A model generated the notes under the pieces. That model made no database searches, was not told the origin of the DNA, and saw only the letters and a list, made by a program, of their open reading frames with translations. Shown here in pieces: positions 18,060 to 56,918 of a stretch of DNA of 64,000 nucleotides. The stretch is from Pseudokineococcus lusitanus (GTDB lineage Bacteria > Actinomycetota > Actinomycetes > Actinomycetales > Quadrisphaeraceae): positions 62,001 through 126,000 of the forward strand of contig NZ_RJKN01000009.1 of NCBI RefSeq assembly GCF_003751265.1, given 5' to 3'. A program made the position numbers and the translations under genes. Every line of letters begins with the position of its first letter. Within the stretch, counting starts at the first letter, position 1.

Positions 18060-18072
18060 CGTCACGCCCGCG

Positions 18073-39082: not shown

Positions 39083-40624
39083 TCAGGCGCCCTGCGACCC
39101 CGTCGCCGGCGGCGCCGCCTCGAGGTGGACGGCCTTGAGCGACGTCAGCTCCCCGAGCAGGTCCGGGCCGAAGCCCCTCCCCTGCCCGCTGGCCCGGCGC
39201 GGGTCGGCCGAGCCCCCGGGCGCCCCGCCGAAGACGGCGTTCACCTTGACCGTCCCCACCTCCAGCGTCTCCGCGGCCTCGAGGGCGTGCGCCGTGCTGG
39301 GCGTCAGCACCGTCGCCGCGAGGCCGTACGCCCCCGCGTCGGCCAGCGCGAGGCCCTCGGCGAAGGAGGGCACGCGCGTCACGGCGGCCACGGGCCCGAA
39401 GGTCTCCTCCGTCATGACCGCCATGTCGGCCGTGCAGCCGTCGAGCACGGTCGCCGGGTAGAAGGAGCCCGGCCCGTCCGGCCGCGCCCCGCCCGCGAGG
39501 ACCCGTGCGCCGGCGGCCACCGCCGCGTCCACGTGCTGCTCGACGACGGCGCGCTGCCGCTCGTCGACGAGCGGGCCGAGACCGGTGCCCGGGTCGGCCG
39601 GGTCGCCGCAGCGCAGGCCGTCGGCGAGCGCGACGAGCTCGGCGAGGACGGCGTCGGCGACGTCCTCGTGGACGTAGACCCGCTCGACCGCGGTGCACAG
39701 CTGACCGGTGTTGGTGAAGGCACCGGTGGCGACCTGCTGCGCCGCCCACGCGGGGTCGACGCCCGCGTCGACGACGAGCGGGTCCTTGCCGCCGTTCTCG
39801 AGGAGGACGCGGGCCCCGCGGGCCCCGGCCGCCGCGGCGATCCGACGACCCGTCGCGGTGCTCCCCACGTGCGCGACGACGTGGACGCGCTCGTCGGCCA
39901 CGAGGGCCGCGCCGGTCTCCCCGTCCCCGACGAGCACCTGCAGCACGCCCTCCGGCAGCGCCTCGGCGATGCGCCGGCCCAGCTCGAGACCCGCCCTGGC
40001 GGAGCGCTCGGACGGCTTGTGCACGACCGTGTTGCCGGTGACGAGCGCCGCCGCCAGCAGGCCCGCGGCCGCCGGGTAGGGGTCGTTCCACGGGGTCAGG
40101 ACGGCGACGACGCCCCGCGGCTCCCGGCGGACGACGTCGACCGCGTCGACGGACCCGCCGAGGGAGCGGCCGGTGTCGAGGACGCCGGTGACGGCGGCCT
40201 CCTCGAGCAGCTCCGCCGCCACCTCCGCCGACGCCCGGGCCTGGCCGAGCAGGCGACCGGTGGTGCGCTGCAGCAGCGCCCCCAGCTCGTCGGCGTCGGC
40301 CCGGACGGCCGCGGCCGCGGCCCGCAGCGCGGCGGCACGGGCCGACGGCGCGGTCCGGCGCCAGGCGGCGCGGGCGGCCGACGCACCGGCCACGGCGGCC
40401 TCGACCTCGTCGGCCCCCGCGAGCCGCAGGGTCCCGGCGGCCTCCCCCGTCGTCGGGTCGACGACGTCGAGCGTCCGGTCCCCGCGCGCCGCGACGGCCC
40501 GTCCGCCGAGCACGTGCGTCGACGTCCCGGCCGGCCCGGCGGCGTCGCCGCCCGTCGTGCCGGGGGTGGCGACGGGGACGGCCGGTGCGGGCAGGGCGGG
40601 CTCGGGCGCCGAGGAGGAGGTCAC
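39083..40624 (-). CDS. NAD(P)-dependent aldehyde dehydrogenase
   Basis: The product is 513 residues. The catalytic cysteine is in FTNTGQLCTAVERVYV near residue 310, and the catalytic glutamate in LLENGGKDPLVVDAG. VLTPWNDPYPAAAGLLAAAL is the substrate-tunnel segment with the conserved N of the family. FGPVAAVTR near the C-terminus completes the cofactor site. The first 40 residues are a low-complexity Ala/Pro extension. It resembles succinate-semialdehyde or benzaldehyde-type members, but the substrate is open. The GTG at 40624 is divergent from the carbamoyltransferase gene by 112 bases. Confidence 0.9.
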   Translation of the reverse strand: MTSSSAPEPALPAPAVPVATPGTTGGDAAGPAGTSTHVLGGRAVAARGDRTLDVVDPTTGEAAGTLRLAGADEVEAAVAGASAARAAWRRTAPSARAAALRAAAAAVRADADELGALLQRTTGRLLGQARASAEVAAELLEEAAVTGVLDTGRSLGGSVDAVDVVRREPRGVVAVLTPWNDPYPAAAGLLAAALVTGNTVVHKPSERSARAGLELGRRIAEALPEGVLQVLVGDGETGAALVADERVHVVAHVGSTATGRRIAAAAGARGARVLLENGGKDPLVVDAGVDPAWAAQQVATGAFTNTGQLCTAVERVYVHEDVADAVLAELVALADGLRCGDPADPGTGLGPLVDERQRAVVEQHVDAAVAAGARVLAGGARPDGPGSFYPATVLDGCTADMAVMTEETFGPVAAVTRVPSFAEGLALADAGAYGLAATVLTPSTAHALEAAETLEVGTVKVNAVFGGAPGGSADPRRASGQGRGFGPDLLGELTSLKAVHLEAAPPATGSQGA

Positions 40625-40736: not shown

Positions 40737-42380
40737 ATGCGCGTCCTCGGCGTCAACGCCGTCTTCCACGACCCCGCCGCCGCCCTCGTCGTCGACGGCC
40801 GCGTCGTCGCCGCCGCCGAGGAGGAGCGCTTCTCCCGGCGCAAGCACGGCAAGCGGCCCGTCCCCTTCTCGGCGTGGGAGCTCCCCGAGCACGCCATGCG
40901 CTGGTGCCTCGAGGAGGCCGGGCTCACGCCCGCCGACCTCGACGCCGTCGCGTACTCCTACGACGCCTCCTTCTGCCGCCCGGCGGAGGAGATGGGGCTG
41001 CAGGACCCGTGGGACCACCTGCGCACCACGTACGCCGAGAAGGCCGCCGGCTTCCTCGCGACGGCGCTGCCGGGCCTGGACCGCGACAAGGTCGTCATGG
41101 TCCGCCACCACGTGGCCCACGCCGCCTCCGCCGGCCTCGCCGTCGCGGGCGACTCGAGCGTCCTCGTGCTCGACGGGCGCGGCGAGCGCGGCTCCCACCT
41201 GGCGGGCCGGTACGTCGGCGGCCGCCTCGAGACGCTCGTGACGACCGACCTGCCCGACTCGGTGGGCCTCGTCTACGAGTCGCTCACGGACCACCTCGGC
41301 TTCCTCCGCTCGAGCGACGAGTTCAAGGTCATGGCCCTCGCCTCCTACGGCGAGCCGCGCTTCGCCGACGCGCTGCGGCCCTCGCTGCACGCGACGGGCG
41401 ACGGCTCCTTCGTCGCCCGCGAGCCCGACTGGGAGCGCTTCGCGCCGCGGCGGGTCGACGACGGCACGTGGGGGGGCGCCCACGCCGACCTCGCCGCGTC
41501 GGTCCAGCTGCTCGTCGAGGAGCTGCTCGTCGACCTCGCCACGTGGCTGCACGGGCAGACGGGCGACCGGGTCCTCACGATGGCCGGCGGCATCGCCCTC
41601 AACTGCGTCGCCAACAGCCGGGTGTGGCGCGAGTCGCCCTTCGAGGAGGTCTGGGTCCAGCCCGCCTCCGGCGACTCCGGGACCGCCCTGGGCGCGGCCC
41701 TGCAGGTCACCGCGGACGCCGGCGTGGCCGTCGAGCCCATGCCGGGCGCCGACCTCGGCCGCTCCTGGTCCGACGAGGAGCTGGCGGCCTGGCTGCGGAC
41801 GGCGCGCGTCCCCTTCACGACGCCGGACGACCTCGCGGGCGAGGTGGCCGACGTCCTCGCCGCCGACGGGGTCGTCGCGTGGTTCGACGGCCGGGCCGAG
41901 TTCGGCCCCCGCGCCCTCGGCCGCCGCTCGCTCATGGCGCACCCCGGCAAGGCGGAGAACCTCGAGCGCCTCAACGACGTCAAGGGGCGCGAGCAGTTCC
42001 GCCCCGTCGCGCCGATGGTCCTCGCCGACCGGGCCGAGGAGATCTTCGCCGACGGGCCGTTCCCGAGCCCGTACATGCTCTTCGTCCACCGCGTGCGCGA
42101 CGAGTGGAAGGAGCGGCTGCCCACCGTCACCCACGTCGACGGGACGGCCCGCATCCAGACGGTCGACGCGGGGCGGACCCCCCGCGTGGCCGCGCTGCTG
42201 GAGGCCTTCGCCGAGCGCACCGGCCTGCCCGTCGTCGTCAACACGAGCCTCAACACCGCCGGCCGCCCCATGGTCGACGACCCGCGCGACGCCCTCGAGC
42301 TGTTCGGCTCGGCCCCCGTGGACGTGCTCGTGCTCGGCCCCCACCTCGTGCGTCGCGCGGACGCCTTCTCCGCCGCGTGA
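40737..42380 (+). CDS. Carbamoyltransferase, NodU/CmcH family
   Basis: The product is 547 residues. The N-terminal Kae1-like domain (MRVLGVNAVFHDPAAALV, then HHVAHAASAG near residue 124 with metal-binding histidines) activates carbamoyl phosphate. The C-terminal YrdC-like half has GRAEFGPRALGRRSLMAHP, the family signature, and VVVNTSLNTAGRPMVDDP. Members carbamoylate hydroxyls of sugars (as in nodulation factors) or of antibiotics. Its position at the head of a glycan locus, overlapping a GT2-phosphatase fusion by four bases, suggests carbamoylation of a heptose or other sugar. Start: the ATG at 40737, since the open frame upstream shadows the divergent gene. Confidence 0.92.
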   Translation: MRVLGVNAVFHDPAAALVVDGRVVAAAEEERFSRRKHGKRPVPFSAWELPEHAMRWCLEEAGLTPADLDAVAYSYDASFCRPAEEMGLQDPWDHLRTTYAEKAAGFLATALPGLDRDKVVMVRHHVAHAASAGLAVAGDSSVLVLDGRGERGSHLAGRYVGGRLETLVTTDLPDSVGLVYESLTDHLGFLRSSDEFKVMALASYGEPRFADALRPSLHATGDGSFVAREPDWERFAPRRVDDGTWGGAHADLAASVQLLVEELLVDLATWLHGQTGDRVLTMAGGIALNCVANSRVWRESPFEEVWVQPASGDSGTALGAALQVTADAGVAVEPMPGADLGRSWSDEELAAWLRTARVPFTTPDDLAGEVADVLAADGVVAWFDGRAEFGPRALGRRSLMAHPGKAENLERLNDVKGREQFRPVAPMVLADRAEEIFADGPFPSPYMLFVHRVRDEWKERLPTVTHVDGTARIQTVDAGRTPRVAALLEAFAERTGLPVVVNTSLNTAGRPMVDDPRDALELFGSAPVDVLVLGPHLVRRADAFSAA

Positions 42381-43939
42381 CGACGGCGCCCCCGGCGGGC
42401 GCCGGCACGCCGGCGGCCGTCGTCCACGACGTCGTCGTCCCGAGCATCGGGCGGCCCAGCCTGCTGGCCCTCCTGCGCAGCCTCGCCGCGCAGGAGGGGC
42501 CGGCCCCGGCCGAGGTGGTCGTCGTCGACGACCGGCGCGACGTGACCGAGGACGGCGCCCTCGAGGCCGAGCTGCTGGACGCCCTCGGCGGCGGCGGCGC
42601 CCTGCCGTGGCGGCTGCGGGTCGTCCGCAGCCGCGGCGGCGGGCCCGCGGCCGCCCGCAACCTCGGCTGGCAGGTCACCGCCTCGCCGTGGGTGGCCTTC
42701 CTCGACGACGACGTGCTGCTGCCGGCCGGCTGGTCCCGCGGGCTGGCCGCCGACCTCGCCGCGGCGGGCCCGGACGTGGGCGGCAGCCAGGGCCGCCTCG
42801 ACGTCCCCCTGCCCGCGGGCCGTCGCCCCACCGACTGGGAGCGCGGCACCAAGGGCCTCGAGACCGCCGCCTGGGCCACCGCCGACATGGCCTACCGCCG
42901 CGCCGCCCTCGAGGCCGTCGCCGGCTTCGACGAGCGCTTCCCGCGGGCCTACCGCGAGGACGCCGACGTCGCGCTGCGGGTCCGCCGCGCCGGGTGGCGG
43001 CTCGTGCGGGGCAGCCGCACGACGACGCACCCGGTGCGCCCGGCCGACCCCTGGGTGAGCCTGCGCGTCCAGGCGGGCAACCGCGACGACGCGACGATGC
43101 GGGCGCTGCACGGCCCGCGGTGGCGCGAGGTGGCCGAGGTCCCGCGCGGCCGCCTCCGGTGGCACGTGGCCACCTGCGCGGCAGCGGCTCTCGGGCTGGC
43201 CGGTGCCGTCGCCGGCCGACCGCGCCTCGCGGCCGCCGGCGTCGCGGGCTGGGCCGCCCTCACGGCCGACTTCGCCCGTCGCCGCATCGCCCCCGGGCCC
43301 CGGACCGCGGCCGAGGTGCGCGCCATGCTCGCCACGAGCGTGGCCATCCCGCCGGCCGCGCTCCGGCACCGCCTCGTCGGGACCCGCCGCGTGCGCGGCG
43401 GGCTGCCGTCCTGGCCGCCGCCCGTCGAGGCGGTGCTCTTCGACCGCGACGGCACGCTCGTCCACGACGTGCCCTACAACGGCGACCCCGCGCTCGTGGC
43501 CCCGGTCGACGGCGCCGCGGAGGTCGTCGCCGCGCTGCGGCGCGCGGGCGTGCTCGTCGGCGTCGTCTCCAACCAGTCGGGCGTCGCGCGCGGCCTGCTC
43601 ACCCGCGCCCAGGTGGACGCCGTCAACGCGGCCGTGGACCGCGCCGTCGGGCCCTTCGCCACGTGGCAGGTCTGCCCGCACGGCCCGGAGGACGGCTGCC
43701 GCTGCCGCAAGCCCGGGCCGGGCATGGTCGAGGCCGCCGCCGCGGCGCTCGGCGTCCCGCCGGCGGCGTGCGCGGTCGTCGGGGACATCGGTGCCGACGT
43801 CGGCGCCGCCCGCGCCGCCGGCGCCCGCTCCGTCCTCGTCCCCACCCCGGTCACCCGTCGCCGCGAGGTCGAGGACGCGCCGCTCGTCGCCGACGACCTG
43901 GCCGGGGCGGTGCGCCTGCTGCTGCCCGGGGTCCTGTGA
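42377..43939 (+). CDS. GT2 glycosyltransferase fused to GmhB-type heptose-bisphosphate phosphatase
   Basis: The product is 520 residues. The N-terminal half (about 1-330) is a GT2 glycosyltransferase: VVPSIGRPSLLALLRSL, a DDRRD acidic site, WVAFLDDDVLLPAGW with the DxD motif, and FPRAYREDADVALRVRRAGW as the ED acceptor loop. From about residue 350 it is a HAD-IIIA phosphatase: FDRDGTLVHDVPYN (DxDGT) near 355, SNQSGVARGL, then CPHGPEDGCRCRKPGPGM with the zinc-binding Cys/His set of GmhB. GmhB removes the 7-phosphate from heptose-1,7-bisphosphate. The two activities in one chain, next to GmhA-HldE, tie transfer to heptose supply. It overlaps both neighbours by four bases. Confidence 0.9.
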   Translation: MTTAPPAGAGTPAAVVHDVVVPSIGRPSLLALLRSLAAQEGPAPAEVVVVDDRRDVTEDGALEAELLDALGGGGALPWRLRVVRSRGGGPAAARNLGWQVTASPWVAFLDDDVLLPAGWSRGLAADLAAAGPDVGGSQGRLDVPLPAGRRPTDWERGTKGLETAAWATADMAYRRAALEAVAGFDERFPRAYREDADVALRVRRAGWRLVRGSRTTTHPVRPADPWVSLRVQAGNRDDATMRALHGPRWREVAEVPRGRLRWHVATCAAAALGLAGAVAGRPRLAAAGVAGWAALTADFARRRIAPGPRTAAEVRAMLATSVAIPPAALRHRLVGTRRVRGGLPSWPPPVEAVLFDRDGTLVHDVPYNGDPALVAPVDGAAEVVAALRRAGVLVGVVSNQSGVARGLLTRAQVDAVNAAVDRAVGPFATWQVCPHGPEDGCRCRKPGPGMVEAAAAALGVPPAACAVVGDIGADVGAARAAGARSVLVPTPVTRRREVEDAPLVADDLAGAVRLLLPGVL

Positions 43940-45090
43940 CGGCCCCCGCGGCGCCGCGCGGCCGGGTGCTCGCCGTCCGGCTCGACAGCGACGGCGACGT
44001 CCTGCTCACGGGTCCCGCCGTCCGCGCGCTCGGGACGGGCGCCGACGGGCGGCCGCGCGAGGTGGACCTGCTCGTCTCGCCCGACGGCCGCGGCGCGGCG
44101 GCGCTGCTGCCCGGGGTGGCGCAGGTGCACGTCGTCCGCGTGCCCTGGAGCGGGTACCGCCCCCCGCCGCTCGACCTCGCCGCGGTCGAGGAGCTGCTGG
44201 CCTGGCTGCGCGGGCGCGCGCACGAGGAGGTCGTCGTCGTGACGTCCTTCCACCAGAGCCCCCTGCCGATGGCCCTGCTCGCCCGGATGGCCGGCGCGCC
44301 GCGCGTCGTCGGGACGAGCGAGGACTACCCGGGCTCGCTGCTCGACGTGCGGCACCGCCGCGGCGGCGGCGCGGACGGCAGCGGCGGCGGGCACGAGGTG
44401 CTCGCCGCGCTGGACCTCGTGGCCGCCACCGGCCGCGCGGTGGACGCCGACGACCCCGCGACCACGCGGCTCGCGGTCCGCGACGACCTCGTCGACGCCG
44501 CGGCCGCCGCGCTGCCGGCCGACCTCGCCGCGCTCGAGGCGCCGGAGGGGCGGCGGCGGCTCGTCGTCGTCCACCCGGGCGCCTCGGTCCCCGCCCGCGC
44601 GCCGTCGCCCGCGGTGGCCGGCGAGGCCGTCGCGGCCCTCGTCGCCGACGGGTGGGACGTCGTCGTCACGGGCTCGCCGGGCGAGCGGGCGCTCGTCGCC
44701 GACGTCGTCGCGCACGCGGCCGACGCCCCGGCACCCGCTGCGGGTCGGGCCGGCGCGGCGACCGGCCGGCTCGTCGACGCGGCCGGCCGCACCGACCTCG
44801 CCGGGCTCGCGGCGCTCCTGCGGGCCGCGCGCGCCGTCGTCGTCGGCAACACCGGCCCGGCCCACCTCGCCGCGGCCGTGGGGACGCCGGTCGTGTCCCT
44901 CTTCTCCCCCGTCGTGCCCGCCGAGCGCTGGGCGCCCTGGGGCGTGCCGGTGGCGCTGCTGGGCGACCAGGCGGCGCCGTGCGCCCTCTCGCGGGCCCGC
45001 GAGTGCCCGGTCGAGGGCCACCCCTGCCTCGCGCTGCGCGGTGGCACGGTCGTGGAGGCCCTACGGTCTGTGGTCGGCGCGGCCCCGTGA
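43936..45090 (+). CDS. GT9 glycosyltransferase (heptosyltransferase-like)
   Basis: The product is 384 residues from the GTG at 43936. LAVRLDSDGDVLLTGPAVRAL is the GT9 N-terminus, equivalent to the RxxxxGDxLLxxP pattern. VVVHPGASVPARAPSP is the acceptor/donor segment with H and the serine-proline stretch. VVVGNTGPAHLAAAVGTPVV with LFSPVVPAERWAPWG is the C-terminal nucleotide-binding signature. GT9 enzymes transfer heptose from ADP-heptose, and here the full ADP-heptose pathway lies in the same operon. A 163-base gap follows before the next gene, with no gene that I recognise in it. Confidence 0.9.
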   Translation: MTAPAAPRGRVLAVRLDSDGDVLLTGPAVRALGTGADGRPREVDLLVSPDGRGAAALLPGVAQVHVVRVPWSGYRPPPLDLAAVEELLAWLRGRAHEEVVVVTSFHQSPLPMALLARMAGAPRVVGTSEDYPGSLLDVRHRRGGGADGSGGGHEVLAALDLVAATGRAVDADDPATTRLAVRDDLVDAAAAALPADLAALEAPEGRRRLVVVHPGASVPARAPSPAVAGEAVAALVADGWDVVVTGSPGERALVADVVAHAADAPAPAAGRAGAATGRLVDAAGRTDLAGLAALLRAARAVVVGNTGPAHLAAAVGTPVVSLFSPVVPAERWAPWGVPVALLGDQAAPCALSRARECPVEGHPCLALRGGTVVEALRSVVGAAP

Positions 45091-45253
45091 GGGCCCGTCG
45101 ACCGCGCCCGACCTGCCCAGCCCCCCGCAGGTCCGGCGCGTGCACGGCCGGCCCGGGTGGTGGAGAAGACGCTCCCCGCGGACGGCTCACCGCGATGGGT
45201 GCCCCGAGCAGCCGCCGCGGGCCCGGAGGTCTGCAGAGACGAGGGGAGGACGC

Positions 45254-46291
45254 ATGAGGGTCCTGCTGTGGCACGTGCACGGCTCCTGGACGACGTCGTT
45301 CGTCCAGGGCGACCACACGTACCTGCTGCCCGTCCTGCCCGACCGCGGGCCGGACGGCCGCGGGCGCGCGCGCACGTGGGACTGGCCGGCTGCCGCGCTC
45401 GAGGTCACGCCCGAGCAGCTCGCGGCGGACCCGCCGGACGTCGTCGTCCTCCAGCGCGCGCACGAGGCCGACCTGCTCCTCGCCTGGACCGGCCTGCGCG
45501 CCGGCGTCGACGTGCCCGTCGTGCACCTCGAGCACGACGCCCCCACGCAGCACGCCGCCCGCAGCCGCCAGCGCGCGGCCGACGGGCCGGACCTCGTCGT
45601 CCACGTCACCGCCTACAACGCGCTCATGTGGGACAACGGGTCGGCGCCGACGACGGTCGTCGAGCACGCCGTCGTCGACCCGGGGCCGCTGGCCACGGGC
45701 ACGCGGGAGAGCCTCGGCGTCGTCGTCAACGAGCCGGTGCGGCGCGAGCGCGTGGCGGGCACGGACGTCGTCCTCGACCTGGCCCGCGACCTGCCCGTCG
45801 AGGTCTACGGCATGGGCATGCCCGCGCTGGCCGCGCTGGCCGCCGAGCGGGGGGTCCCCGTCGGCGGCGGGGCCGGCCCCGCGGGGCTGCTGGGCCTGCA
45901 CGACGACGTCCCCCAGGCCGCCATGCACGCCCGGCTCGGCGAGCACCGCGCCTACCTCCACCCGTACCGGTGGACGAGCCTGGGGCTCGCCCTGGTCGAG
46001 GCCATGACCATCGGCCTGCCGGTCCTCGCCGTCGCGAGCACCGCGGCGGCCGACGCGGTCCCGCCCGCCGGCGGGGTCGTCTCGGCGGACCCCCGCGTGC
46101 TCGCCGACGCCGCCCGCCGCTGGCTCGTCGACCCGGCCGCGGCCCGCGAGGCCGGCGCCGCCGCCCGCGAGCACGCGCTGTCCCGGTTCGGGCTGGCCCG
46201 GTTCCTCGCCGACTGGGACGAGGTCCTCGACGCCGTCGTCGCCGGCGACCTGCCCCGCGCCGTCCGCCGCCGCACGGGGGTCGCCGCGTGA
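45254..46291 (+). CDS. Glycosyltransferase, GT4-like
   Basis: The product is 345 residues. The ATG at 45254 follows a strong GAGGGGAGGA ribosome binding site. MRVLLWHVHGSWTTSFVQG opens the N-terminal Rossmann half, with VVVLQRAHEADLL. The C-terminal half has HRAYLHPYRWTSLGLALVEA followed by AMTIGLPVLAVAS, where ExxxxG-like GT-B residues sit. It is more divergent than the next gene, and I cannot name its donor or acceptor. It overlaps the following gene by four bases (GTGA). Confidence 0.8.
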   Translation: MRVLLWHVHGSWTTSFVQGDHTYLLPVLPDRGPDGRGRARTWDWPAAALEVTPEQLAADPPDVVVLQRAHEADLLLAWTGLRAGVDVPVVHLEHDAPTQHAARSRQRAADGPDLVVHVTAYNALMWDNGSAPTTVVEHAVVDPGPLATGTRESLGVVVNEPVRRERVAGTDVVLDLARDLPVEVYGMGMPALAALAAERGVPVGGGAGPAGLLGLHDDVPQAAMHARLGEHRAYLHPYRWTSLGLALVEAMTIGLPVLAVASTAAADAVPPAGGVVSADPRVLADAARRWLVDPAAAREAGAAAREHALSRFGLARFLADWDEVLDAVVAGDLPRAVRRRTGVAA

Positions 46292-47529
46292 GGGTGGCGA
46301 TGGTCTCGGAGCACGCGAGCCCGCTCGCCGCGCTCGGCGGCGTCGACGCCGGCGGGCAGAACGTCCACGTCGCCCACCTGGCGACGGCGCTGGCCGCCCG
46401 CGGCCACGAGGTCACCGTCTACACGCGGCGCGACGCGGTCGACCTGCCCGAGCGGGTGCGGCTGGCCGACGGCGTGGACGTCGTCCACGTCGACGCCGGC
46501 CCGCCGACCGAGGTGCCCAAGGACGCGCTGCTGCCGCACATGGAGGCCTTCGGGCGGGAGCTCGCCGCCCACCTCCTCGAGCACCCGGCGGACCTCCTCC
46601 ACGCGCACTTCTGGATGAGCGGCGTCGCCGCGCGCCAGGCCGCCCGCTCCGTCGGTCTCCCGCTCGTCATCACCTTCCACGCCCTCGGCTCGGTCAAGCG
46701 GCGTCACCAGGGCGCGGACGACACGAGCCCGCCCTCGCGCGTGGCGGTCGAGGCCGGCCTCGTGGCCGACGTCGACGCCGTCCTGGCCACGTGCACCGAC
46801 GAGGTGCGCGAGCTGGTGGGCTCCGAGGGCCGCGACGGGCTCGGCGCCGACGGGGCGGCCGTGCACGTCGTGCCCTGCGGCGTGGACGTCGCCCGCTTCA
46901 CGCCCGAGGGCCCGGTGGGCGGTCCGCCGCGGCGGATGCCGCACCGCGTCGTCGTCGTCGGGCGCCTCGTCGAGCGCAAGGGCGTCGAGGACGTCGTGCG
47001 CGCCCTCGCGCTGGCGCCCGGCTCGGCGCTCGGCCGCACCGAGCTGGTCGTCGCGGGCGGGCCGCCCGCCGACCACCTGGCCATCGACGCCGAGGCGCAG
47101 CGGCTGCTCGCCGTCGCCGAGGAGGTCGGCGTGGCCGACCGGGTCCACCTGCTCGGCCGGGCCGACCACGGCGACCTGCCGGCGCTGCTGCGCAGCGCGG
47201 ACGTCGTCGTCGCCGCCCCCTGGTACGAGCCCTTCGGCATCGTCCCGCTCGAGGCGATGGCCTGCGGCCGTCCCGTCGTCGGGTCGGCCGTCGGCGGGCT
47301 GCTCGACACGGTCGAGGACGGGGTGACGGGGGTCCTCGTGCCCCCGCGCGACCCCGTCGCCCTGGCCGCGGCCCTGGCCCCGCTGCTCGACGACCCGGCG
47401 CGCCGGCAGGCCTGGGGCCGTGCCGCCCGGGAGCGCGCCGTCGCCCACTACGGCTGGCCCGAGGTGGCCGCCCGCACCGAGGACGTCTACGCGGGCGTCC
47501 TCGCCCGCACGAGGCTGGAGGCCCTGTGA
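46288..47529 (+). CDS. GT4 glycosyltransferase
   Basis: The product is 413 residues of the GT-B fold. The N-terminus VAMVSEHASPLAALGGVDAG with QNVHVAHLATALAARGHEV is typical of GT4 (PimA/sucrose-synthase-like). VVVVGRLVERKGVEDVVRAL starts the donor half. WYEPFGIVPLEAMACGRPVV contains the EX7E motif that binds the donor phosphate. It ends with PEVAARTEDVYAGVLA. The donor sugar is unknown. The GTG at 46288 overlaps the preceding gene and the stop overlaps the GmhA-HldE gene, so the order is coupled. Confidence 0.92.
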   Translation: MRVAMVSEHASPLAALGGVDAGGQNVHVAHLATALAARGHEVTVYTRRDAVDLPERVRLADGVDVVHVDAGPPTEVPKDALLPHMEAFGRELAAHLLEHPADLLHAHFWMSGVAARQAARSVGLPLVITFHALGSVKRRHQGADDTSPPSRVAVEAGLVADVDAVLATCTDEVRELVGSEGRDGLGADGAAVHVVPCGVDVARFTPEGPVGGPPRRMPHRVVVVGRLVERKGVEDVVRALALAPGSALGRTELVVAGGPPADHLAIDAEAQRLLAVAEEVGVADRVHLLGRADHGDLPALLRSADVVVAAPWYEPFGIVPLEAMACGRPVVGSAVGGLLDTVEDGVTGVLVPPRDPVALAAALAPLLDDPARRQAWGRAARERAVAHYGWPEVAARTEDVYAGVLARTRLEAL

Positions 47530-49796
47530 CCGACGCCCCGCAGCACCCGCGCCCCGCCGACCCGCTCGTGCCGACGGACCCGGCCTCCGCCGCGGCCGCC
47601 GCGCCCTGGCTCGACGGCCACGTCGACGAGCTCGTCGCCGCCCTCGGCCGCCTGCGGCCGAGCGCGGCCGTCCTCCACCGCTGGGGCGCCGAGCTCGCCG
47701 GCGTCCTCGCCGGCGGGGGCCGCCTGCTCGCGGCCGGCAACGGCGGCAGCGCCGCCGAGGCGCAGCACCTCACCGCCGAGCTCGTCGGCCGCTTCGTCGA
47801 CGAGCGGCGCCCGCTGTCGGCCATCGCGCTGCACGCGGACACCTCGAGCGTCACCGCCATCGGCAACGACTACGGCGAGCGGGAGGTCTTCGCCCGCCAG
47901 GTGCAGGCGCACGGCCGGCCCGGCGACGTCGTCGTCCTCCTGTCCACCTCGGGCCGCAGCCCCAACGTCCTCGAGGCGGCCGCCCGCGCCCGCGCCGGCG
48001 GGATGCGCGTGTGGGCCCTCACCGGCCCGCTGCCCAACCCGCTGGCCGAGCTGGCGGACGAGGTCGTCGGCGTCGACGCGCCGTCGACCTCGGGCGTCCA
48101 GGAGGGGCACCTCGTGCTCGTCCACGCCCTCTGCGCGGGCGTCGACACCGCGCTGGCCGCCGCGGACGCCGGCGGGCCCGTCCCCGCGGACGCCCCGGAC
48201 GCCCCGGACGCCCCGGACGCGGCCGCCACGGGCACGACGCCCGACGGGCCCGTGGTCGTCGAGCCGTCCGACGACGCCCCGTCGGTCCGTCGCGGCGGCC
48301 GCCGCCGGCGGGTCGTCGTCGTCGGCGACGTGGTGCTGGACCGCGACCTCGAGGGGGTCGTGGAGCGGGTGGCGCCGGACGCGCCCGTGCCCGTCGTCGA
48401 CCTCCGCCGCACGACCGAGAGCCCCGGCGGCGCCGGCCTCACCGCGCTGCTCGTGGCCTCGGGCCGGGCGGGCGGGGCGAGCCCCACGGCCGACGACGTC
48501 GAGGTCGTCCTCGTCGCCCCGGTCGGCGACGACGAGGACGGCGGCCGGCTGCGGGCCGCCCTCGTCGAGGGCACGGGCGACGGCGAGGGCCTCCGCCTGG
48601 TCGCCCTCCCCCACACCGGTCTGACCCGGACGAAGACCCGCGTCCGCGCGGCGGGGCAGTCCCTCGTCCGCGTGGACTCGGGCGGGCCGGGCACGCCCTC
48701 GGCGCCGGACCTCGACGAGCTGCGCGCGGTCCTGGCGTCCGCCGACGTCGTCCTCGTGTCCGACTACGGTGCGGGCACGACCCACGACCCCGGCGTCCGC
48801 GCGCTGCTCGGCGCGGCCGCCGCGTCCGTCCCCGTGGTGTGGGACCCGCACCCGCGCGGCGGCGAGCCCGTCCACGGCTGCGCCCTCGTCACGCCCAACC
48901 TCTCCGAGGCGGCCCGCGTCCTCGGCGGCGCCCCCCGGCCCGACGACGGCGCCGGCGCGCTCGCGCGCCGCTGGGCCGCGCGCGGCGTCGTCGTGACCGT
49001 CGGCGAGCGGGGCGCCTTCCTCGGCCTGCCGGGGACCGAGCCGCTCTACGTGCCCGCGCCCGTCGTCGCCGGCGGCGACCCGTGCGGCGCCGGCGACCGC
49101 TTCGCCGCCACGGCGGCGCTGGCCCTCGCCCGCGGCGCCGTCCTGCCCGAGGCCGTCGTCGAGGCCGTCGAGGACGCCTCCGCCTGGGTCGCGGGCGGCG
49201 GGGCCGCCGGCTGGCGGTCGCGCCGCGCCGCGGGCGCCCGTCCGGCACCGTCCGCCCCCGTCACCGCCCCGACGGCGACCGGCGGCGGCGACCCCGCCGA
49301 GCCGGCGCGCGCCGCCGACGTGGCCGGGCTCCTGGCCCGGGTGCGCGCCGCCGGCGGCACCGTCGTGGCCACGGGGGGCTGCTTCGACGTCCTCCATGCC
49401 GGGCACGTGGCGTGCCTCCAGGCGGCCCGCCGCCTCGGTGACGCCCTCGTCGTCCTCGTGAACTCCGACGCCTCCGTGCGCCGGCTCAAGGGCGAGGGCC
49501 GTCCGGTCCAGGCCCAGGCCGACCGGGTCCGGGTCCTGCAGGCGCTCGAGGCCGTCGACGCCGTCGCCGTCTTCGACGAGGACGACCCGCGCGAGGCGCT
49601 GCGCGTCCTGCAGCCCGACGTCTGGGCCAAGGGCGGCGACTACGGCGCGGCCGGCGCCGTCATGCCGGAGGCCCCCCTCGTCCAGGGGTGGGGCGGGCGG
49701 GTCGTCCTGCTGCCCTACCTCGACGGCCGTTCGACCACCGAGATCCTCCGTCGCGGGGCCCCCGCGACGGTCCCCGCCGAGCAGGAGAACCCGTGA
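47526..49796 (+). CDS. GmhA-HldE fusion: heptose isomerase, kinase and nucleotidyltransferase
   Basis: The product is 756 residues with three enzymes. Residues 25-210 are a SIS domain of the GmhA type (LLAAGNGGSAAEAQHLTAEL, then VVLLSTSGRSPNVLEAA). It isomerises sedoheptulose-7-phosphate. After a DAP-repeat linker, residues about 258-570 are a PfkB/HldE kinase, ending with GGDPCGAGDRFAATAALALA near 519, where the GAGD aspartate is the base. Residues 600-750 are a nucleotidyltransferase: ATGGCFDVLHAGHVACLQAA with HxGH near 617, then NSDASVRRLKGEGRPV. Together with GmhB in the GT2 fusion, this gives ADP-D-glycero-D-manno-heptose. The epimerase HldD is not seen in the window. Confidence 0.92.
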   Translation: MTDAPQHPRPADPLVPTDPASAAAAAPWLDGHVDELVAALGRLRPSAAVLHRWGAELAGVLAGGGRLLAAGNGGSAAEAQHLTAELVGRFVDERRPLSAIALHADTSSVTAIGNDYGEREVFARQVQAHGRPGDVVVLLSTSGRSPNVLEAAARARAGGMRVWALTGPLPNPLAELADEVVGVDAPSTSGVQEGHLVLVHALCAGVDTALAAADAGGPVPADAPDAPDAPDAAATGTTPDGPVVVEPSDDAPSVRRGGRRRRVVVVGDVVLDRDLEGVVERVAPDAPVPVVDLRRTTESPGGAGLTALLVASGRAGGASPTADDVEVVLVAPVGDDEDGGRLRAALVEGTGDGEGLRLVALPHTGLTRTKTRVRAAGQSLVRVDSGGPGTPSAPDLDELRAVLASADVVLVSDYGAGTTHDPGVRALLGAAAASVPVVWDPHPRGGEPVHGCALVTPNLSEAARVLGGAPRPDDGAGALARRWAARGVVVTVGERGAFLGLPGTEPLYVPAPVVAGGDPCGAGDRFAATAALALARGAVLPEAVVEAVEDASAWVAGGGAAGWRSRRAAGARPAPSAPVTAPTATGGGDPAEPARAADVAGLLARVRAAGGTVVATGGCFDVLHAGHVACLQAARRLGDALVVLVNSDASVRRLKGEGRPVQAQADRVRVLQALEAVDAVAVFDEDDPREALRVLQPDVWAKGGDYGAAGAVMPEAPLVQGWGGRVVLLPYLDGRSTTEILRRGAPATVPAEQENP

Positions 49797-50584
49797 GCAG
49801 CAGCACCACCGACCAGCCCACCACCGCCGGGGGGCAGGAGGCCGCCGTCGCGCTGCCGACCGGCCCCGCCGTGGGCCCCGAGGGCGGCATGGCCGGCCAG
49901 CGGGAGATCGGCACCGTCTACGTGACCGGCGGCTCGTCGGGCCTCGGCGCGGCCGTGGTCGAGGTCGTCCGCGCCCTCGGCGGCACCGCCGCGGTCATCG
50001 ACCGCGCCGCCCCGGCGGCCGACGTCCCCCACGCCCTCGCGGACGTCTCGGACGCCGCCGCCGTGGAGCGCGCCGTCGCCGAGCTCGTCGAGCAGGTCGG
50101 CCCGCCCACCGCCGTCGTCACGGCCGCGGGCACGGACGCCGTCGGGCGCCTCGAGGACGTCCCGGCCGACCGGTGGGCGCAGGTCGTGGGCGTCAACCTC
50201 ATCGGCACCGCGGCCGCCGTCCGCGCCTGCCTGCCGCACCTCAAGGCCGCGCGCGGCGTCGTCGTCACGGTGTCCAGCTCGCTGGGCCTGCGGGCCGCCA
50301 GCGATGCGAGCGCCTACTGCGCCAGCAAGTTCGGCGTCGTCGGGTTCACCCGCGCGCTGCAGCTGGAGCTCGCGGGCGAGGTGGGCGTGACGATGCTCGT
50401 CCCCGCCGGCATGCGCACCCACTTCTTCGACGGCCGCACCGAGCAGTACCGGCCGGGACCGGACGCCGACCTCATGGACCCGCGCGTCGTCGCCCACTCG
50501 GTCGTGCACGCGCTGCGGCAGCCCGTCGGCACCGAGGTGCGCGAGATGGTCGTCACCGTCTCGACCGAGCCCTCCTGGCCGTAG
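49793..50584 (+). CDS. Classical short-chain dehydrogenase/reductase in the heptose locus
   Basis: The product is 263 residues. A 35-residue disordered extension precedes VYVTGGSSGLGAAVVEVV (TGxxxGxG). ADVSDAA is the acidic motif, VVTAAGTDAVG the NAG-like segment, VTVSSSLGLRAASDASAYCA with the YCASK catalytic pair near residue 180. It is a classical single-domain SDR, not the extended HldD epimerase, so I do not equate it with ADP-heptose epimerase. It may reduce or oxidise the heptose or an acceptor. It overlaps the preceding gene by four bases, and the next starts three bases later. Confidence 0.85.
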   Translation: MSSSTTDQPTTAGGQEAAVALPTGPAVGPEGGMAGQREIGTVYVTGGSSGLGAAVVEVVRALGGTAAVIDRAAPAADVPHALADVSDAAAVERAVAELVEQVGPPTAVVTAAGTDAVGRLEDVPADRWAQVVGVNLIGTAAAVRACLPHLKAARGVVVTVSSSLGLRAASDASAYCASKFGVVGFTRALQLELAGEVGVTMLVPAGMRTHFFDGRTEQYRPGPDADLMDPRVVAHSVVHALRQPVGTEVREMVVTVSTEPSWP

Positions 50585-50587
50585 GCC

Positions 50588-51715
50588 GTGCGGACGGTCC
50601 CCCCGTCGCCCGAGGACGACCCCGGCACCCGTGCCGGGGTCGTCCTCGCGCTGCGCGCGCTCGGGCTGGGTGACGCCCTCACCGGGGTCCCGGCGCTGCG
50701 CGGCCTCCGGCGGGCCTTCCCCGGCGCGCACCTCGTCCTCGCCGGGCCCTCGGGACCCGGGGGGCTGCTGCGGCGCCGGGGGGTCGTCGACGACGTCCTG
50801 CCGGTCGACGGGGTGGCGGCGATCGCCGAGGACGCCGTCGTCGCCGCGGCGCACGAGCACCCTGCCGTGCTGCCGCCGGGCTGGCCGGTGGTCGCCGCGG
50901 TCAACCTCCACGGCCGCGGCCCGCAGAGCGCCCTCGCGCTGCGCGGGCTGCTCGACGAGCGCGGCGCCGACGGGGCCAGGCTCCTCGGGCACGCCTGCCC
51001 CGCCGCCGGTCTCGACGGCCCGGCCTGGTCGGACGACGTCGCCGAGGTCGAGCGGTGGGCCTCGCTCGTGCGGGCGACGACGGGCGCGCCCTGCGGGCCG
51101 GAGGACCTGCGGCTCGACGCCGCGGCGTGGCCGACGCCCCTGGCGCCCGAGCGGACGGCGCCGGGACCGGCGGAGGCGGCCCGCCCCGGACGCACCGTCG
51201 TCCTGCACCCGGGGGCCGCGTCGGGCTCCCGCCGCTGGCCGGCGTCGTGCTGGACGGCGCTCGCGGCGGCGCTCGTGGCGGGCGGGCGCGACGTCGTCCT
51301 CACCGGCTCGGCGGCCGAGGCGGACGTCACGGCCGAGGTGGCGGTGCGCGCCCGCGCCGTCGTGGCGCGCTCGGGCCCGACGTCGTGCGTGGTCGTCGAC
51401 ACCGCGGGCCGCTGCGACCTCGAGCAGCTGGCCGGGCTCCTCGCCGGCGCCCGCGCCCTCGTGTGCGGCGACACCGGGGTGGCCCACCTCGCCACGGCGC
51501 TCGCGACGCCGTCGGTCCTGCTCTTCGGGCCGACGAGCCCGGCGGCGTGGGGCCCCGCCGTCGACCACCACCTCCACCCGGTGCTGTGGCCCGCGCCCTC
51601 GGCGGCGTACCGCGGCGACCCGCACGGTGCCGCGGTCGACCCGGTGCTGGCCCGGACCACCGTCGACGACGTCCTCGGCGCCCTCGCCGCCCTGCCGGCC
51701 CGCCGCGCGGCCTGA
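50588..51715 (+). CDS. GT9 glycosyltransferase (heptosyltransferase-like), second copy
   Basis: The product is 375 residues. VVLALRALGLGDALTGVPAL is the GT9 start with GLGD. AAVNLHGRGPQSALALRGLL follows. VVLHPGAASGSRRWPASCWT is the HPGA-SxxRxWP signature of heptosyltransferases, and LVCGDTGVAHLATALATPSV with LFGPTSPAAWGP forms the donor site. It differs from the copy at 43936, so the two probably add heptose at different positions. The GTG at 50588 follows the SDR stop by three bases, and the AlkA-like gene starts one base after it. Confidence 0.92.
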   Translation: MRTVPPSPEDDPGTRAGVVLALRALGLGDALTGVPALRGLRRAFPGAHLVLAGPSGPGGLLRRRGVVDDVLPVDGVAAIAEDAVVAAAHEHPAVLPPGWPVVAAVNLHGRGPQSALALRGLLDERGADGARLLGHACPAAGLDGPAWSDDVAEVERWASLVRATTGAPCGPEDLRLDAAAWPTPLAPERTAPGPAEAARPGRTVVLHPGAASGSRRWPASCWTALAAALVAGGRDVVLTGSAAEADVTAEVAVRARAVVARSGPTSCVVVDTAGRCDLEQLAGLLAGARALVCGDTGVAHLATALATPSVLLFGPTSPAAWGPAVDHHLHPVLWPAPSAAYRGDPHGAAVDPVLARTTVDDVLGALAALPARRAA

Positions 51716-52664: not shown

Positions 52665-52683
52665 CCCGCCGCCCCCCTCTCTC

Positions 52684-52917
52684 GGCACCTGGGCGCCCAT
52701 CTGCCCACCCCGGTCCCCTCACCCGGCACGTGGGCGCCCATCTGCCCACCCCGGTCCCCTGACCCGGCACGTGGGCGCCCATCTGCCCATCCCGGCGCCC
52801 TCACCCGGCACGTGGGCGCCCATCTGCCCACCCCGGCGCCCTCACCCGGCACGTGGGCGCCCATCTGCCCACCCCGAGCCCCTCACCCGGCACGTGGGCG
52901 CCCTCCTGCCCGTCGGT
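52684..52917. repeat. 41-bp tandem repeat array, five full copies plus a degenerate sixth
   Basis: Units begin at 52684, 52725, 52766, 52807, 52848 and 52889, each starting GGCACGTGGGCGCCCATC (first copy GGCACC). In every full unit GTGGGC at positions 6-11 can pair with GCCCAC at 20-25. The central TGGGCGCCCA is also a palindrome. Because 41 is not a multiple of three, the array does not encode a protein repeat. It follows the AlkA-like gene by 19 bases and could serve as a terminator, a set of binding sites, or a strain-variable VNTR. Confidence 0.9.
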
Positions 52918-52953
52918 GCGCTGGGAGGGCGGACGGGGCGGGGCGCGGCGAGC

Positions 52954-53298
52954 ATGGGGGGCGTGGACGAGGACCACCGCGCACACCTCCTGGCGCGCTA
53001 CCGCGAGCTCGTGCTCGACCGGCTCCCCGCGCGCGGGCGGGCGGAGGGGTGGGCGGTGCAGGTCGACCACTGCGTCGGCCGGGTCGTCCTCGACAACACC
53101 CTCGGCGGGGCCTGGCGCGAGGTGCTGCCCGCCGGCCGCGGCGCCGCGTTCACCCGGCTGCCCCCGGAGGCGCTCGAGCGGGCCGTGGCGCTCGCCGAGC
53201 GCATGGACGCCGAGGGCGCGCCGCTCGTCGCCGAGCTCGACGCCCGCAGCCTCGCGTGGCGCGGGAAGCCGCCGAAGCGGACCCGCGGCGCGGCCTGA
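52954..53298 (+). CDS. Hypothetical protein, 114 residues
   Basis: The product is 114 residues from the ATG at 52954; a GTG at 52963 is an alternative. It begins VDEDHRAHLLARYRELVLDR, then a compact alpha/beta stretch (WAVQVDHCVGRVVLDNTLGG, WREVLPAGRGAAFTRLPPEA), a helix (LERAVALAERMDAEG), and a basic end (WRGKPPKRTRG). I have seen similar small proteins in actinobacteria but know no function. There is no signal peptide or membrane helix. The gene sits right after the 41-bp repeats, whose last copy may overlap its promoter. Confidence 0.75.
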   Translation: MGGVDEDHRAHLLARYRELVLDRLPARGRAEGWAVQVDHCVGRVVLDNTLGGAWREVLPAGRGAAFTRLPPEALERAVALAERMDAEGAPLVAELDARSLAWRGKPPKRTRGAA

Positions 53299-53334
53299 CG
53301 CGGCCGACGGCGCCGCCCGGCCCAGGATGGGCGG

Positions 53335-54611: not shown

Positions 54612-55628
54612 TCAGCGGGTCGGCGGGACCGCCCGGCCGGCACCGGGCACGACGGCGTCCCGGAACCACGCCACGGTGCGGGCCAGGCCGTCCGCCCAGT
54701 CGACCTCGGGCTTCCAGCCCAGCGCGGCCGCCGCGAGCGTCGTGTCGGGCCGGCGCACCTGCGGGTCGTCCACCGGCCGCCCGACGTGCTCGACCACCGA
54801 CGACGACCCGGTGGCCGCGATGACGTCCTCGGCGATCTGCCGGACCGTCAGCTCCGTCGGGTTGCCGATGTTGACCGGCCCGGCGTGGTCGGACGCCGCG
54901 AGGGCGAGGATGCCGCGCACGAGGTCGTCGACGTAGCAGACCGAGCGGGTCTGCTGCCCGTCGCCGGCCACGGTGAGCGGCTCGCCCGCCAGCGCCTGCC
55001 GGATGAAGGTCGGGATGGCCCGGCCGTCGTGCGGGCGCATCCGCGGGCCGAAGGTGTTGAAGATGCGGACGATGCCCGTGTCGACGCCGTGCGTCTGCCG
55101 GTACGCCGTCGTCAGCGCCTCGGCGTACCGCTTGGCCTCGTCGTAGACGCCGCGGGGCCCGACGGGGTTGACGTGGCCCCAGTAGTCCTCGGGCTGCGGG
55201 TGCACCTGCGGGTCGCCGTAGACCTCCGACGTCGAGGCCAGGACGAGCCGGGCGCCCTTGTCCTTGGCGAGCCCGAGGGCGTGCATGGTGCCGATCGAGC
55301 CGACCTTCAGCGTCTCGATCGGCAGCTTGAGGTAGTCCACCGGGGACGCGGGCGACGCGAAGTGCAGGACGAGGTCCACGTCACCGGGGACGTGGACGTA
55401 GTCGGTGATGTCGCAGCGCACGAGCCGCAGCCCGGGGTGCTCGGACAGGTGCGCGAGGTTCTGCGGCGTCCCGGTGAGGAAGCTGTCGAGGCCGACGACC
55501 TCGGTGCCGCGGGCCAGGAGCTCCTCGACGAGGTGGCTGCCGAGGAAGCCGGCGGCGCCGGTGACGACGGCCCGCCGCGGCGGGTCGGCCCGCCCGGGGG
55601 CGGTGGGGAGGGGTGCTGCGGTGCTCAC
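54612..55628 (-). CDS. UDP-glucuronate decarboxylase (UDP-xylose synthase)-like epimerase
   Basis: The product is 338 residues of the extended SDR family. VVTGAAGFLGSHLVEELLAR (TGxxGFxG) starts it. VVGLDSFLTGTPQNLAHL and DLVLHFASPASPVDYLKLPI are diagnostic of the UXS group. ASTSEVYGDPQVHPQPEDYW, then YDEAKRYAEALTTAYRQTHG carry the catalytic Ser and YxxxK, and RIFNTFGPRMRPHDGRAIP follows. It should convert UDP-glucuronate to UDP-xylose in the cytoplasm, which would supply pentose to a surface glycan. It follows a DUF2795 gene by 15 bases on the same strand. Confidence 0.9.
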   Translation of the reverse strand: MSTAAPLPTAPGRADPPRRAVVTGAAGFLGSHLVEELLARGTEVVGLDSFLTGTPQNLAHLSEHPGLRLVRCDITDYVHVPGDVDLVLHFASPASPVDYLKLPIETLKVGSIGTMHALGLAKDKGARLVLASTSEVYGDPQVHPQPEDYWGHVNPVGPRGVYDEAKRYAEALTTAYRQTHGVDTGIVRIFNTFGPRMRPHDGRAIPTFIRQALAGEPLTVAGDGQQTRSVCYVDDLVRGILALAASDHAGPVNIGNPTELTVRQIAEDVIAATGSSSVVEHVGRPVDDPQVRRPDTTLAAAALGWKPEVDWADGLARTVAWFRDAVVPGAGRAVPPTR

Positions 55629-55841: not shown

Positions 55842-56002
55842 GGTGTCCTCCGGTGCTCGTGCTGGATGCCTGCGGTACGGCGGTGTCCCTGCGGTGCGGC
55901 GGGCCCCGCGGGGGCGGCCCGGCCACGGGCGGCCCGGGTGCAGGGGGCCGGCCGCGCGCCACTCTGCCGTCTCCCCCCGGCAGCCGCGCGGCGGGTGCCC
56001 GC

Positions 56003-56008
56003 TAGCGT
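56003..56008 (+). promoter_or_regulatory. Probable -10 element (TAGCGT) of the GT2 gene
   Basis: TAGCGT lies seven bases before the GTG at 56016 and matches the pattern of leaderless actinobacterial promoters. It is in the 174-base divergent region with the DUF2795 gene. Confidence 0.45.
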
Positions 56009-56015
56009 CCCCGCC

Positions 56016-56918
56016 GTGCCCGTCGAGCCCCCGTCCTCCCGCCCCGAGACCGCCGCAGGCCCCGCGCCGTCGGCGGGACGTCCTCTCGCGGAGCGCGTCA
56101 CCGTCGTCGTCGTGAGCAAGGACCGCCGCGACGAGCTGCTGGCCAGCCTGCGCCGCCACGAGGCGCCCGTCGTCCTCGTCGACAACGGCAGCAGCGACGG
56201 CACCGTCGAGGCCGTGCGGCGCGAGCTGCCGCACGTCGACGTCGTCGCCCTGCCGGCCAACCGGGGCGCCGCCGCGCGCACGCTCGGCGTCGAGCGGGCC
56301 CGCACCCCCTACGTCGCCTTCGCCGACGACGACTCCTGGTGGGCGCCGGGCATGCTCGCCCGCGTCGCCGACCTCTTCGACGCGAGCCCCCGCCTCGCGC
56401 TCGTCAACGCGCGCATCCTCGTCGGCCCGGAGGAGCGCCTCGACGGCATCTGCGAGGTCATGGCGCGCTCGGCGCTCGGCACGGACGACGACCTCCCCGG
56501 CCCGTCGCTCCTCGGCTTCGTCGCCTGCGCCGCCGCCGTCCGCCGGGACGCCTTCCTCAAGGTGGGCGGCTTCGACGACGTGGTGTTCTTCCCCGGCGAG
56601 GAGGAGCGCGTGGCCTACGACCTCGCGGCGGCGGGGCACGGCCTCGCGTACGTCGACGACGTCGTCATCCACCACCACCCCTCCCCCCGGCGCGACGTCC
56701 GCGACGAGCGCGCCGTCAAGGTCGCGCGCGCGGCGTTCCTCACGGCGGTCATGCGCCGCCCGTGGCCGCACGTGGCGGGCTCCCTCGTCCGCACCGCCCG
56801 GCAGCGGCCCCGCGCCCTCTGGCGCGCGCGCACGTCGGTGCCCGCGGCCCTGCGGCAGCGTCGCGTCAACCCGCCCGCGGTCGAGGCGGGGCTGAAGGTC
56901 CTCGTCGAGGCCGGCTGA
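56016..56918 (+). CDS. GT2-family glycosyltransferase
   Basis: The product is 300 residues from the GTG at 56016. VTVVVVSKDRRDELLASL begins the GT-A fold. VVLVDNGSSDGTVEAVRREL and LPANRGAAARTLGVERART are family segments. YVAFADDDSWWAPGML has the DxD metal site, and VVFFPGEEERVAYDLAAAG is the catalytic loop with the EE residues. The C-terminus is basic and may touch the membrane. The donor is unknown. It is opposite the UDP-xylose synthase-like gene, so UDP-xylose is one possibility. Confidence 0.9.
   Translation: MPVEPPSSRPETAAGPAPSAGRPLAERVTVVVVSKDRRDELLASLRRHEAPVVLVDNGSSDGTVEAVRRELPHVDVVALPANRGAAARTLGVERARTPYVAFADDDSWWAPGMLARVADLFDASPRLALVNARILVGPEERLDGICEVMARSALGTDDDLPGPSLLGFVACAAAVRRDAFLKVGGFDDVVFFPGEEERVAYDLAAAGHGLAYVDDVVIHHHPSPRRDVRDERAVKVARAAFLTAVMRRPWPHVAGSLVRTARQRPRALWRARTSVPAALRQRRVNPPAVEAGLKVLVEAG

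Follow-up and report, generated by a model that had tools for sequence, protein, structure and literature searches.

Tridomain NDP-heptose synthetases of actinobacteria (NDP, nucleoside diphosphate) are reportedly the subject of Tang et al. 2022 (Sci China Life Sci), to go by the title. Proteins joining isomerase, kinase and nucleotidyltransferase in this way are one type of NDP-heptose biosynthetic enzyme, according to a section of PMC11573728. In Streptomyces coelicolor, genes sco6179-6190 make up the cwg ('cell wall glycan synthesis') operon, whose sigma-E promoter lies 147 bases upstream of the start codon (passage in PMC6767563), and passages of PMC6767563 and PMC5839063 cite Hong et al. 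2002 for its status as a putative cell wall glycan operon. The same two papers, in the parts cited, describe it as vancomycin-induced and partly dependent on the envelope-stress factor sigma-E. SCO6186 is named there a phosphoheptose isomerase and SCO6187 a bifunctional synthase/transferase (PMC5839063), and SCO6183 a putative heptosyl transferase (excerpt of PMC5882110). The operon described here spans positions 40737-51715 of a 64,000-nucleotide stretch of Pseudokineococcus lusitanus DNA (the window), which belongs to a 3.84 Mb assembly in 19 contigs. It is probably a Pseudokineococcus member of the actinobacterial cwg-type glycan operons, and its product most likely is an envelope oligosaccharide or glycolipid.

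Related loci were collected by a similarity scan of genome contigs. Counts refer to the best 80 of 355, a set that for this reason leans to close relatives; some of the loci are cut by contig ends. Glycosyltransferases are denoted by family (GT2, GT4, GT9). The genes of the operon are the following.

40737..42380, + strand: O-carbamoyltransferase of the NodU/TobZ type (Carb; cwgB-like by position), from domain matches; 57 of 80 related loci, 8 of them distant Nocardia copies
42377..43939, + strand: GT2 (about residues 1-340) fused to a GmhB-type D,D-heptose-1,7-bisphosphate 7-phosphatase (about 345-520), from domains and E. coli alignment
43936..45090, + strand: GT9 heptosyltransferase-like enzyme (GT9a; cwgE-like by position), from domain matches
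45254..46291, + strand: GT4-like glycosyltransferase (GT4a), best Pfam match 34 bits; 65 of 80 loci
46288..47529, + strand: GT4 resembling sucrose-phosphate synthase and MshA (GT4b), from domain and solved-structure matches
47526..49796, + strand: tridomain NDP-heptose synthetase (GmhA isomerase, heptose-7-phosphate kinase, heptose-1-phosphate nucleotidyltransferase), from domains and E. coli alignment
49793..50584, + strand: short-chain dehydrogenase/reductase (SDR), no substrate assigned, from a domain match; 46 of 80 loci
50588..51715, + strand: GT9 heptosyltransferase-like enzyme (GT9b), from domain matches

Five of the seven gene junctions are 4-base stop/start overlaps; gaps of 163 and 3 bases precede GT4a (45254) and GT9b (50588). 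The open reading frames (ORFs) have been translated and scanned with Pfam and NCBIfam, and every enzyme type named in a preliminary description of the operon was found, always on the forward strand. That description listed the GmhA, HldE and GmhB types one by one. The types stand, with two fusions to be added: GmhA and HldE form one ORF of 756 amino acids, and the 520-amino-acid GT2-GmhB ORF carries the GmhB-type phosphatase as its C-terminal half.

The connection to cwg comes from promoter-anchored loci. The 29-base cwg promoter given in a passage of PMC6767563 was searched, allowing at most one mismatch, across 392 genomes belonging to the same genus as G280, and was found in four, once exactly and three times with one mismatch. 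In L156, L158 and L159 the promoter is followed by a UDP-xylose synthase-like gene (UXS), carbamoyltransferase, GT2, GmhB, GT9a, GT4a, GT4b, GmhA, HldE, GT9b and two genes of a second GT2 type (GT2b), all promoter-linked matches being on one strand. The gene caller finds twelve genes after the promoter in L156 and in L159; in L158 it finds eleven, GT9a being present there as a protein match only. L156 holds the exact match, which ends 147 bases before a GTG at the first gene, the same distance as in the cited passage of PMC6767563; this GTG was picked by eye, the gene caller having placed the start further in. The twelve-gene order is found also in the Streptomyces loci L093 and L103. At L157 (G457:C1:6066500-6084500) the promoter, with one mismatch, precedes only GT2 and GT4b matches, apparently a decayed operon.

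Because the promoter-anchored loci carry the same gene types in order, the window operon is to be counted among the cwg-type operons. Nine enzyme types (carbamoyltransferase, GT2, GmhB, GT9, GT4, GT4, GmhA, HldE, GT9) occur in the same order as in sco6179-6190, the Streptomyces side being tied to S. coelicolor by promoter sequence, and the UDP-xylose synthase and GT2b families are also shared. In contrast to S. coelicolor cwg, GT2 and GmhB as well as GmhA and HldE are fused in the window, an SDR gene is inserted between HldE and GT9b, an aldehyde dehydrogenase gene lies divergently upstream, and UXS and one GT2b are located downstream, not at the operon ends. The operon had been presented at first as unusual, a view that finds no support, since both the actinobacterial tridomain synthetases and cwg are already in print. 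No open-licence paper joining cwg, heptose and Streptomyces was found by a search whose wording misses 'phosphoheptose' and 'heptosyl', and it is possible that an existing paper already connects heptose with cwg.

The heptose enzymes have been compared with E. coli K-12 proteins, taken from NC_000913, by pairwise alignment. Identity to GmhA is 36% for the isomerase domain, which keeps E65, T120, Q172 and H180; for the kinase-nucleotidyltransferase part, identity to HldE is 38%, and HAGH and GAGD are conserved; the phosphatase half shares 36% identity with GmhB and keeps the DxD pair and the C-x-H...C-x-C cluster. We take these to be catalytic and metal-binding residues. The HldE model scores 268 bits on the tridomain protein, gmhA 144 and PRK08942 (GmhB) 110; rfaE_dom_II scores 173 on the protein and 176.6 on the genome, just under its curated cut-off of 181.5. 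The GT9 matches are of 64 and 92 bits, those of the carbamoyltransferase C and N parts of 212 and 163; the GT4a match is weak, 34 bits against a cut-off of 26.4. Among solved structures, the isomerase domain matches phosphoheptose isomerases (140 bits) and the kinase domain heptose-7-phosphate kinase 4e84 (81 bits).

Across the related loci the H-x-GH motif is found in 80/80 and GAGD/GSGD in 79/80, and D/N-T/S-G-x-x-H in 67 of 69 GT9a and 66 of 76 GT9b. The GmhA pattern Q-[ED]-x-H is absent from 18 of 79 loci, 11 of them from Lentzea; in the six misses viewed, the pattern probes a His other than that aligned with H180. DRDG is absent from 15 of 66 GmhB loci, and in the eight rows viewed is replaced by DRDD or DRDN with the DxD pair retained. 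Enzyme types and checked motif residues are supported at the sequence level. Read in one frame with motif residues kept, the tridomain protein is, by these sequence marks, of the actinobacterial tridomain NDP-heptose synthetase type. It has in common with such enzymes the one-chain isomerase-kinase-nucleotidyltransferase arrangement, a separate phosphatase activity and the motif Arg discussed below, and differs in that the phosphatase is fused to a GT2. As for GT4b, its identification with the mycothiol enzyme MshA was considered and rejected: GT4b scores 246 bits, and a separate match in the genome, at 490 bits, is above the MshA cut-off.

The nucleotidyltransferase ends with YLDGRSTT, an STTR5-like motif with Arg at the fifth place. 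The signature (F/L)XXGRSTT marks promiscuous heptose nucleotidyltransferases, and the STTR5 Arg is linked to ATP/CTP/UTP promiscuity, in a passage of PMC11573728; compared with the motif given there, the window enzyme keeps the Arg and has Tyr, not Phe/Leu, as first residue. ADP-heptose had been assumed as the donor. This is not a necessity, as the Arg tied to promiscuity is there, and because of it CDP- and UDP-heptose may be made beside ADP-heptose. GRSTT is present in 55 of the 80 loci, another residue precedes STT in 6, and 19 escape the pattern. Of these, GRSTS is read in Cellulomonas (2), GVSTS in Nocardia (9), ARST(T/S) in Arthrobacter (5) and Brevibacterium (1), and GYSSS in Mycobacterium (1); one Thermomonospora locus gave no readable motif call.

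The host had been presumed to lack lipopolysaccharide (LPS), and the genome agrees with this. In a search of 14 genomes, the window's genome gave neither an LpxC nor an Omp85 match, the controls being positive in 4/14 and 7/14 genomes, respectively, E. coli included in both. A true HldD was looked for and rejected: of seven model matches the best has 80 bits, against a cut-off of 274.6 passed by controls in 2/14 genomes. GT9a and GT9b are the only GT9 matches in the whole genome. As predicted from sequence, every step between sedoheptulose-7-phosphate and NDP-D,D-heptose has its enzyme, in line with the preliminary description. With no LpxC or Omp85 and no HldD over cut-off, NDP-D,D-heptose is therefore predicted to be made without LPS, and L,D-heptose is not expected. 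Relative to the Gram-negative LPS-core pathway (GmhA, HldE, GmhB, HldD, WaaC/WaaF), the first four steps and the use of GT9 transferases are alike; the window's genome differs by the HldD, LpxC and Omp85 results just given, and by GT9s only 26-29% identical to WaaC/WaaF.

The same genes, similarly ordered, are met again in related loci. Kinase and nucleotidyltransferase are found in all 80 loci, GmhA in 79, GT4b and GmhB in 66 each, GT9a, GT9b and GT4a in 65 each, carbamoyltransferase in 57, GT2 in 50 and SDR in 46. The set is not a product of chance, since it recurs while the rest of the window's genes turn up in only 0 to 7 loci. GT2-GmhB fusions were counted in 26 loci, GmhA-kinase fusions in 19 and GT4b-GmhA fusions in 7, the latter with no stop between the two parts (L083, L085, L125 (Kineococcus), L087 (Dietzia), L102, L128, L132). 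The GT2-GmhB and GT4b-GmhA fusions argue for glycosyltransferases and heptose enzymes acting together. The nearest named relatives, from Pseudokineococcus, are 82-83% identical in the best tridomain segment and 93% in the carbamoyltransferase.

A less biased sample of 296 genomes was drawn across the phylum, taking E up to 1e-40 as a strong match. A strong heptose nucleotidyltransferase was found in 37, the window's own genome included. Some carbamoyltransferase match (E up to 1e-30) is present in 27 of these, and in 24 it is at least 63% identical to that of the window. The two genes are 4.0 to 7.2 kb apart in 23 of the 24 and on different contigs in one (G241). The module is therefore widespread but patchy, far from universal. 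Within the genus of G567, taken as Streptomyces from the promoter match, the carbamoyltransferase is found at E up to 1e-180 in 41 of 121 sampled genomes.

A carbamoyltransferase tree has 44 rows: the window sequence plus those 43 of the 57 labelled loci whose sequence is more than 50% identical and 450-700 amino acids long. Its groups follow the genera; the window falls next to Pseudokineococcus, with Quadrisphaera and Kineococcus following in that order. Some families are split: Lentzea is apart from other Pseudonocardiaceae, and Thermomonospora from Actinomadura. The Dietzia sequence, on a long branch and with modest support (89/69), is next to Kineosporiaceae rows, and is a candidate for transfer.

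The carbamoyltransferase matches the solved enzymes TobZ, GdmN and that of novobiocin, which presumably are all antibiotic enzymes. This raises the question whether the operon makes a heptose-bearing secondary metabolite, similar to septacidin or hygromycin B or to a bleomycin-like carbamoyl-mannose disaccharide, rather than an envelope glycan. A literature search on the bleomycin-like likeness returned nothing relevant. Published passages place actinobacterial ADP-heptose in septacidin and hygromycin B biosynthesis, and in the eight Nocardia loci the tridomain gene is in another setting, with a distant carbamoyltransferase. Against these points, inspection by eye of the recurrent neighbours revealed no gene for making an aglycone (the antibiotic clusters themselves were not compared), a strong nucleotidyltransferase match was found in 13 of 13 family genomes searched, own genome included (E 2.7e-51 or lower), the carbamoyltransferase tree clusters by genus, and the cited part of PMC6767563 presents the Streptomyces counterpart as an operon of cell-envelope stress. 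A secondary metabolite is accordingly a distinctly improbable product, and an envelope glycan is preferred.

Two variant settings were observed. In Nocardia L073-L078, L081 and L082 (e.g. L077:9992-19449) the tridomain synthetase has no GT4 partners in the stretch examined, and the carbamoyltransferase is distant (34-36%); L077 features also GT9-like, radical-SAM-like and hydroxymethyltransferase-like genes, recognised by eye. The setting looks like a heptose natural-product or glycan cluster. Loci L089, L102, L106, L108, L112, L117, L119, L121, L127 and L128, from Arthrobacter, Curtobacterium, Zafaria, Brevibacterium and Amnibacterium, are a module variant with no carbamoyltransferase or GT2 matches in the stretch examined. 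They have a second divergent kinase-nucleotidyltransferase, in most cases an extra GT9-like gene, and an aldehyde dehydrogenase in 9 of 10 loci.

Co-location was monitored with every called window gene as query against the 80 loci, merging aligned pieces; calls came from a home-made codon-usage gene caller, whose starts are rough. Operon genes were found in 45 to 78 loci (GT9a in 64, the tridomain protein in 78). Outside the operon only three genes recur widely, all others being found in 0 to 7 loci. These three, and the gene adjoining the operon, are listed below.

39083..40624, - strand: aldehyde dehydrogenase, divergent neighbour, probable module member; 26 of 80 loci, 11 genera
54612..55628, - strand: UDP-glucuronate decarboxylase/UDP-xylose synthase-like (UXS; cwgA-like by position in Streptomyces); 41 of 80 loci, one of them a weak 27% match, 17 genera
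55995..56918, + strand: GT2 glycosyltransferase (GT2b; resembles the last two cwg genes); 26 of 80 loci, 13 genera
51717-52664, directly after GT9b: DNA-3-methyladenine glycosylase of the AlkA type; 4 of 80 related loci

Locus stretches extend beyond the operon by only about 3 kb on the upstream side and 8 kb on the downstream side, and distant window genes are for this reason a weak control. The fair control is given by the immediate neighbours (37645-38883, 51717-54551 and 56922-57970), found in 0 to 7 loci, the seven referring to a small gene at 55644-55841. Being in only four loci, the AlkA-type glycosylase is not a module member. The module is larger than first described: it includes the UXS-like gene and the second GT2, and probably the aldehyde dehydrogenase. 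The UXS-like protein scores 340 bits against solved 4gll, UDP-glucuronic acid decarboxylase 1. In 15 loci from 6 genera the operon has UDP-glucose-dehydrogenase-like neighbours, the family being read by eye; the window's genome has two matches to this family elsewhere, and the UDP-xylose synthase could be supplied by an enzyme of this kind.

In the proposed pathway, the GmhB half of the GT2-GmhB fusion would take off the 7-phosphate, and the third domain of the tridomain protein would make ADP- (perhaps CDP- or UDP-) D-glycero-D-manno-heptose. The two GT9 enzymes would transfer heptose, and GT2, GT4a, GT4b and GT2b would add further sugars, one probably xylose supplied through the linked UDP-xylose synthase. 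The carbamoyltransferase would O-carbamoylate a sugar, possibly the heptose; carbamoylated heptose in the Pseudomonas LPS core, mentioned in a passage of PMC8005017, is a chemical precedent. Sugar identities, linkage order, carbamoylation site, acceptor and export of the product, and the roles of SDR and aldehyde dehydrogenase, are inferred. Of the carbamoylated heptose surface glycan put forward in the preliminary description, the heptose glycan and its carbamoylation are likely, and the surface placement and the acceptor cannot be read from the DNA.

Several observations weigh against the cwg-type reading. The NCBIfam equivalog cut-offs are unreached for the HldE, rfaE_dom_II, gmhA, GmhB, GT9 and carbamoyltransferase models. 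The top solved match of the nucleotidyltransferase domain is a 'putative cytidylyltransferase' (5x9q, 128 bits), and that of the GmhB half an unassigned HAD hydrolase (3l8h, 76 bits), followed by D,D-heptose-1,7-bisphosphate phosphatase 4pnh at 75 bits. The low identity of GT9a and GT9b to WaaC and WaaF comes from forced alignments, GT9a carries Asn where the E. coli enzymes carry Asp before [TS]-G-x-x-H, and the solved-structure match of GT9b is limited to the C-terminal part (49 bits). GT9 family members are not all heptosyltransferases. UXS and GT2b are not part of the overlapping run, starting 2.9 and 4.3 kb past the operon end. Scans for AAC-N15-19-CGTC and for the best 29-base match detected no cwg-like promoter ahead of the window operon; best matches in the window and relatives have at least 11 mismatches, nothing convincing. 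The AAC-N15-19-CGTC pattern was seen in only 3 of 12 Streptomyces loci, at differing places, and because most Streptomyces loci failed too, the scan has no positive control outside close S. coelicolor kin. Lastly, nothing among the recurrent neighbours was recognised by eye as a flippase, polymerase, initiating phosphoglycosyltransferase or wall ligase, and the surface location is for this reason assumed.

The missing transport and ligase genes would suit a cytosolic or protein-bound heptosylated molecule, such as a glycoprotein or a soluble oligosaccharide, in place of a wall glycan or glycolipid. The resemblance of GT4b to sucrose-phosphate synthase and MshA points the same way, as both act on soluble phosphates. 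Such a product is unlikely in view of the S. coelicolor operon, vancomycin-induced and partly sigma-E-dependent in the passages cited (PMC6767563, PMC5839063). The unreached equivalog cut-offs would also fit GmhA/HldE/GmhB-like enzymes working on another sugar phosphate, for example of mannose or of a different heptose, with no D-glycero-D-manno-heptose being made; HldE nucleotidyltransferase domains do take beta-mannose-1-phosphate in vitro, according to a passage of PMC10948575. This is very improbable, all four steps being found together with the checked motif residues kept, and tridomain enzymes being described in PMC11573728, in the section cited, as NDP-heptose biosynthetic.

The genes themselves are not new. 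The heptose glycan operon is real and well conserved, and the locus is of a known kind, so that the value of the window operon is to attach a chemistry to cwg, joining two lines, the vancomycin-induced operon and the actinobacterial NDP-heptose synthetases. It is tentatively suggested that the cwg glycan, unknown since 2002, might be a carbamoylated, xylose- and D,D-heptose-containing envelope glycan common to many actinobacteria. The cwg glycan would gain a chemical signature to be sought: D,D-heptose, O-carbamoyl and probably xylose. If the suggestion is true, wall-antibiotic stress would raise NDP-heptose synthesis in Gram-positives where sigma-E controls cwg. A good number of actinobacteria are predicted to make NDP-heptoses without LPS, and NDP-heptoses are agonists of the vertebrate sensor ALPK1, as stated in a passage of PMC11573728.

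Two further genes of the window were noted, both on the reverse strand. A proline-rich repeat protein with PVEEPPV-type repeats, extensin-like by a Pfam match below cut-off, is encoded at 37645-38883. A large calcineurin-like phosphoesterase is encoded at 18062-20203, between genes that resemble relA and apt by eye.

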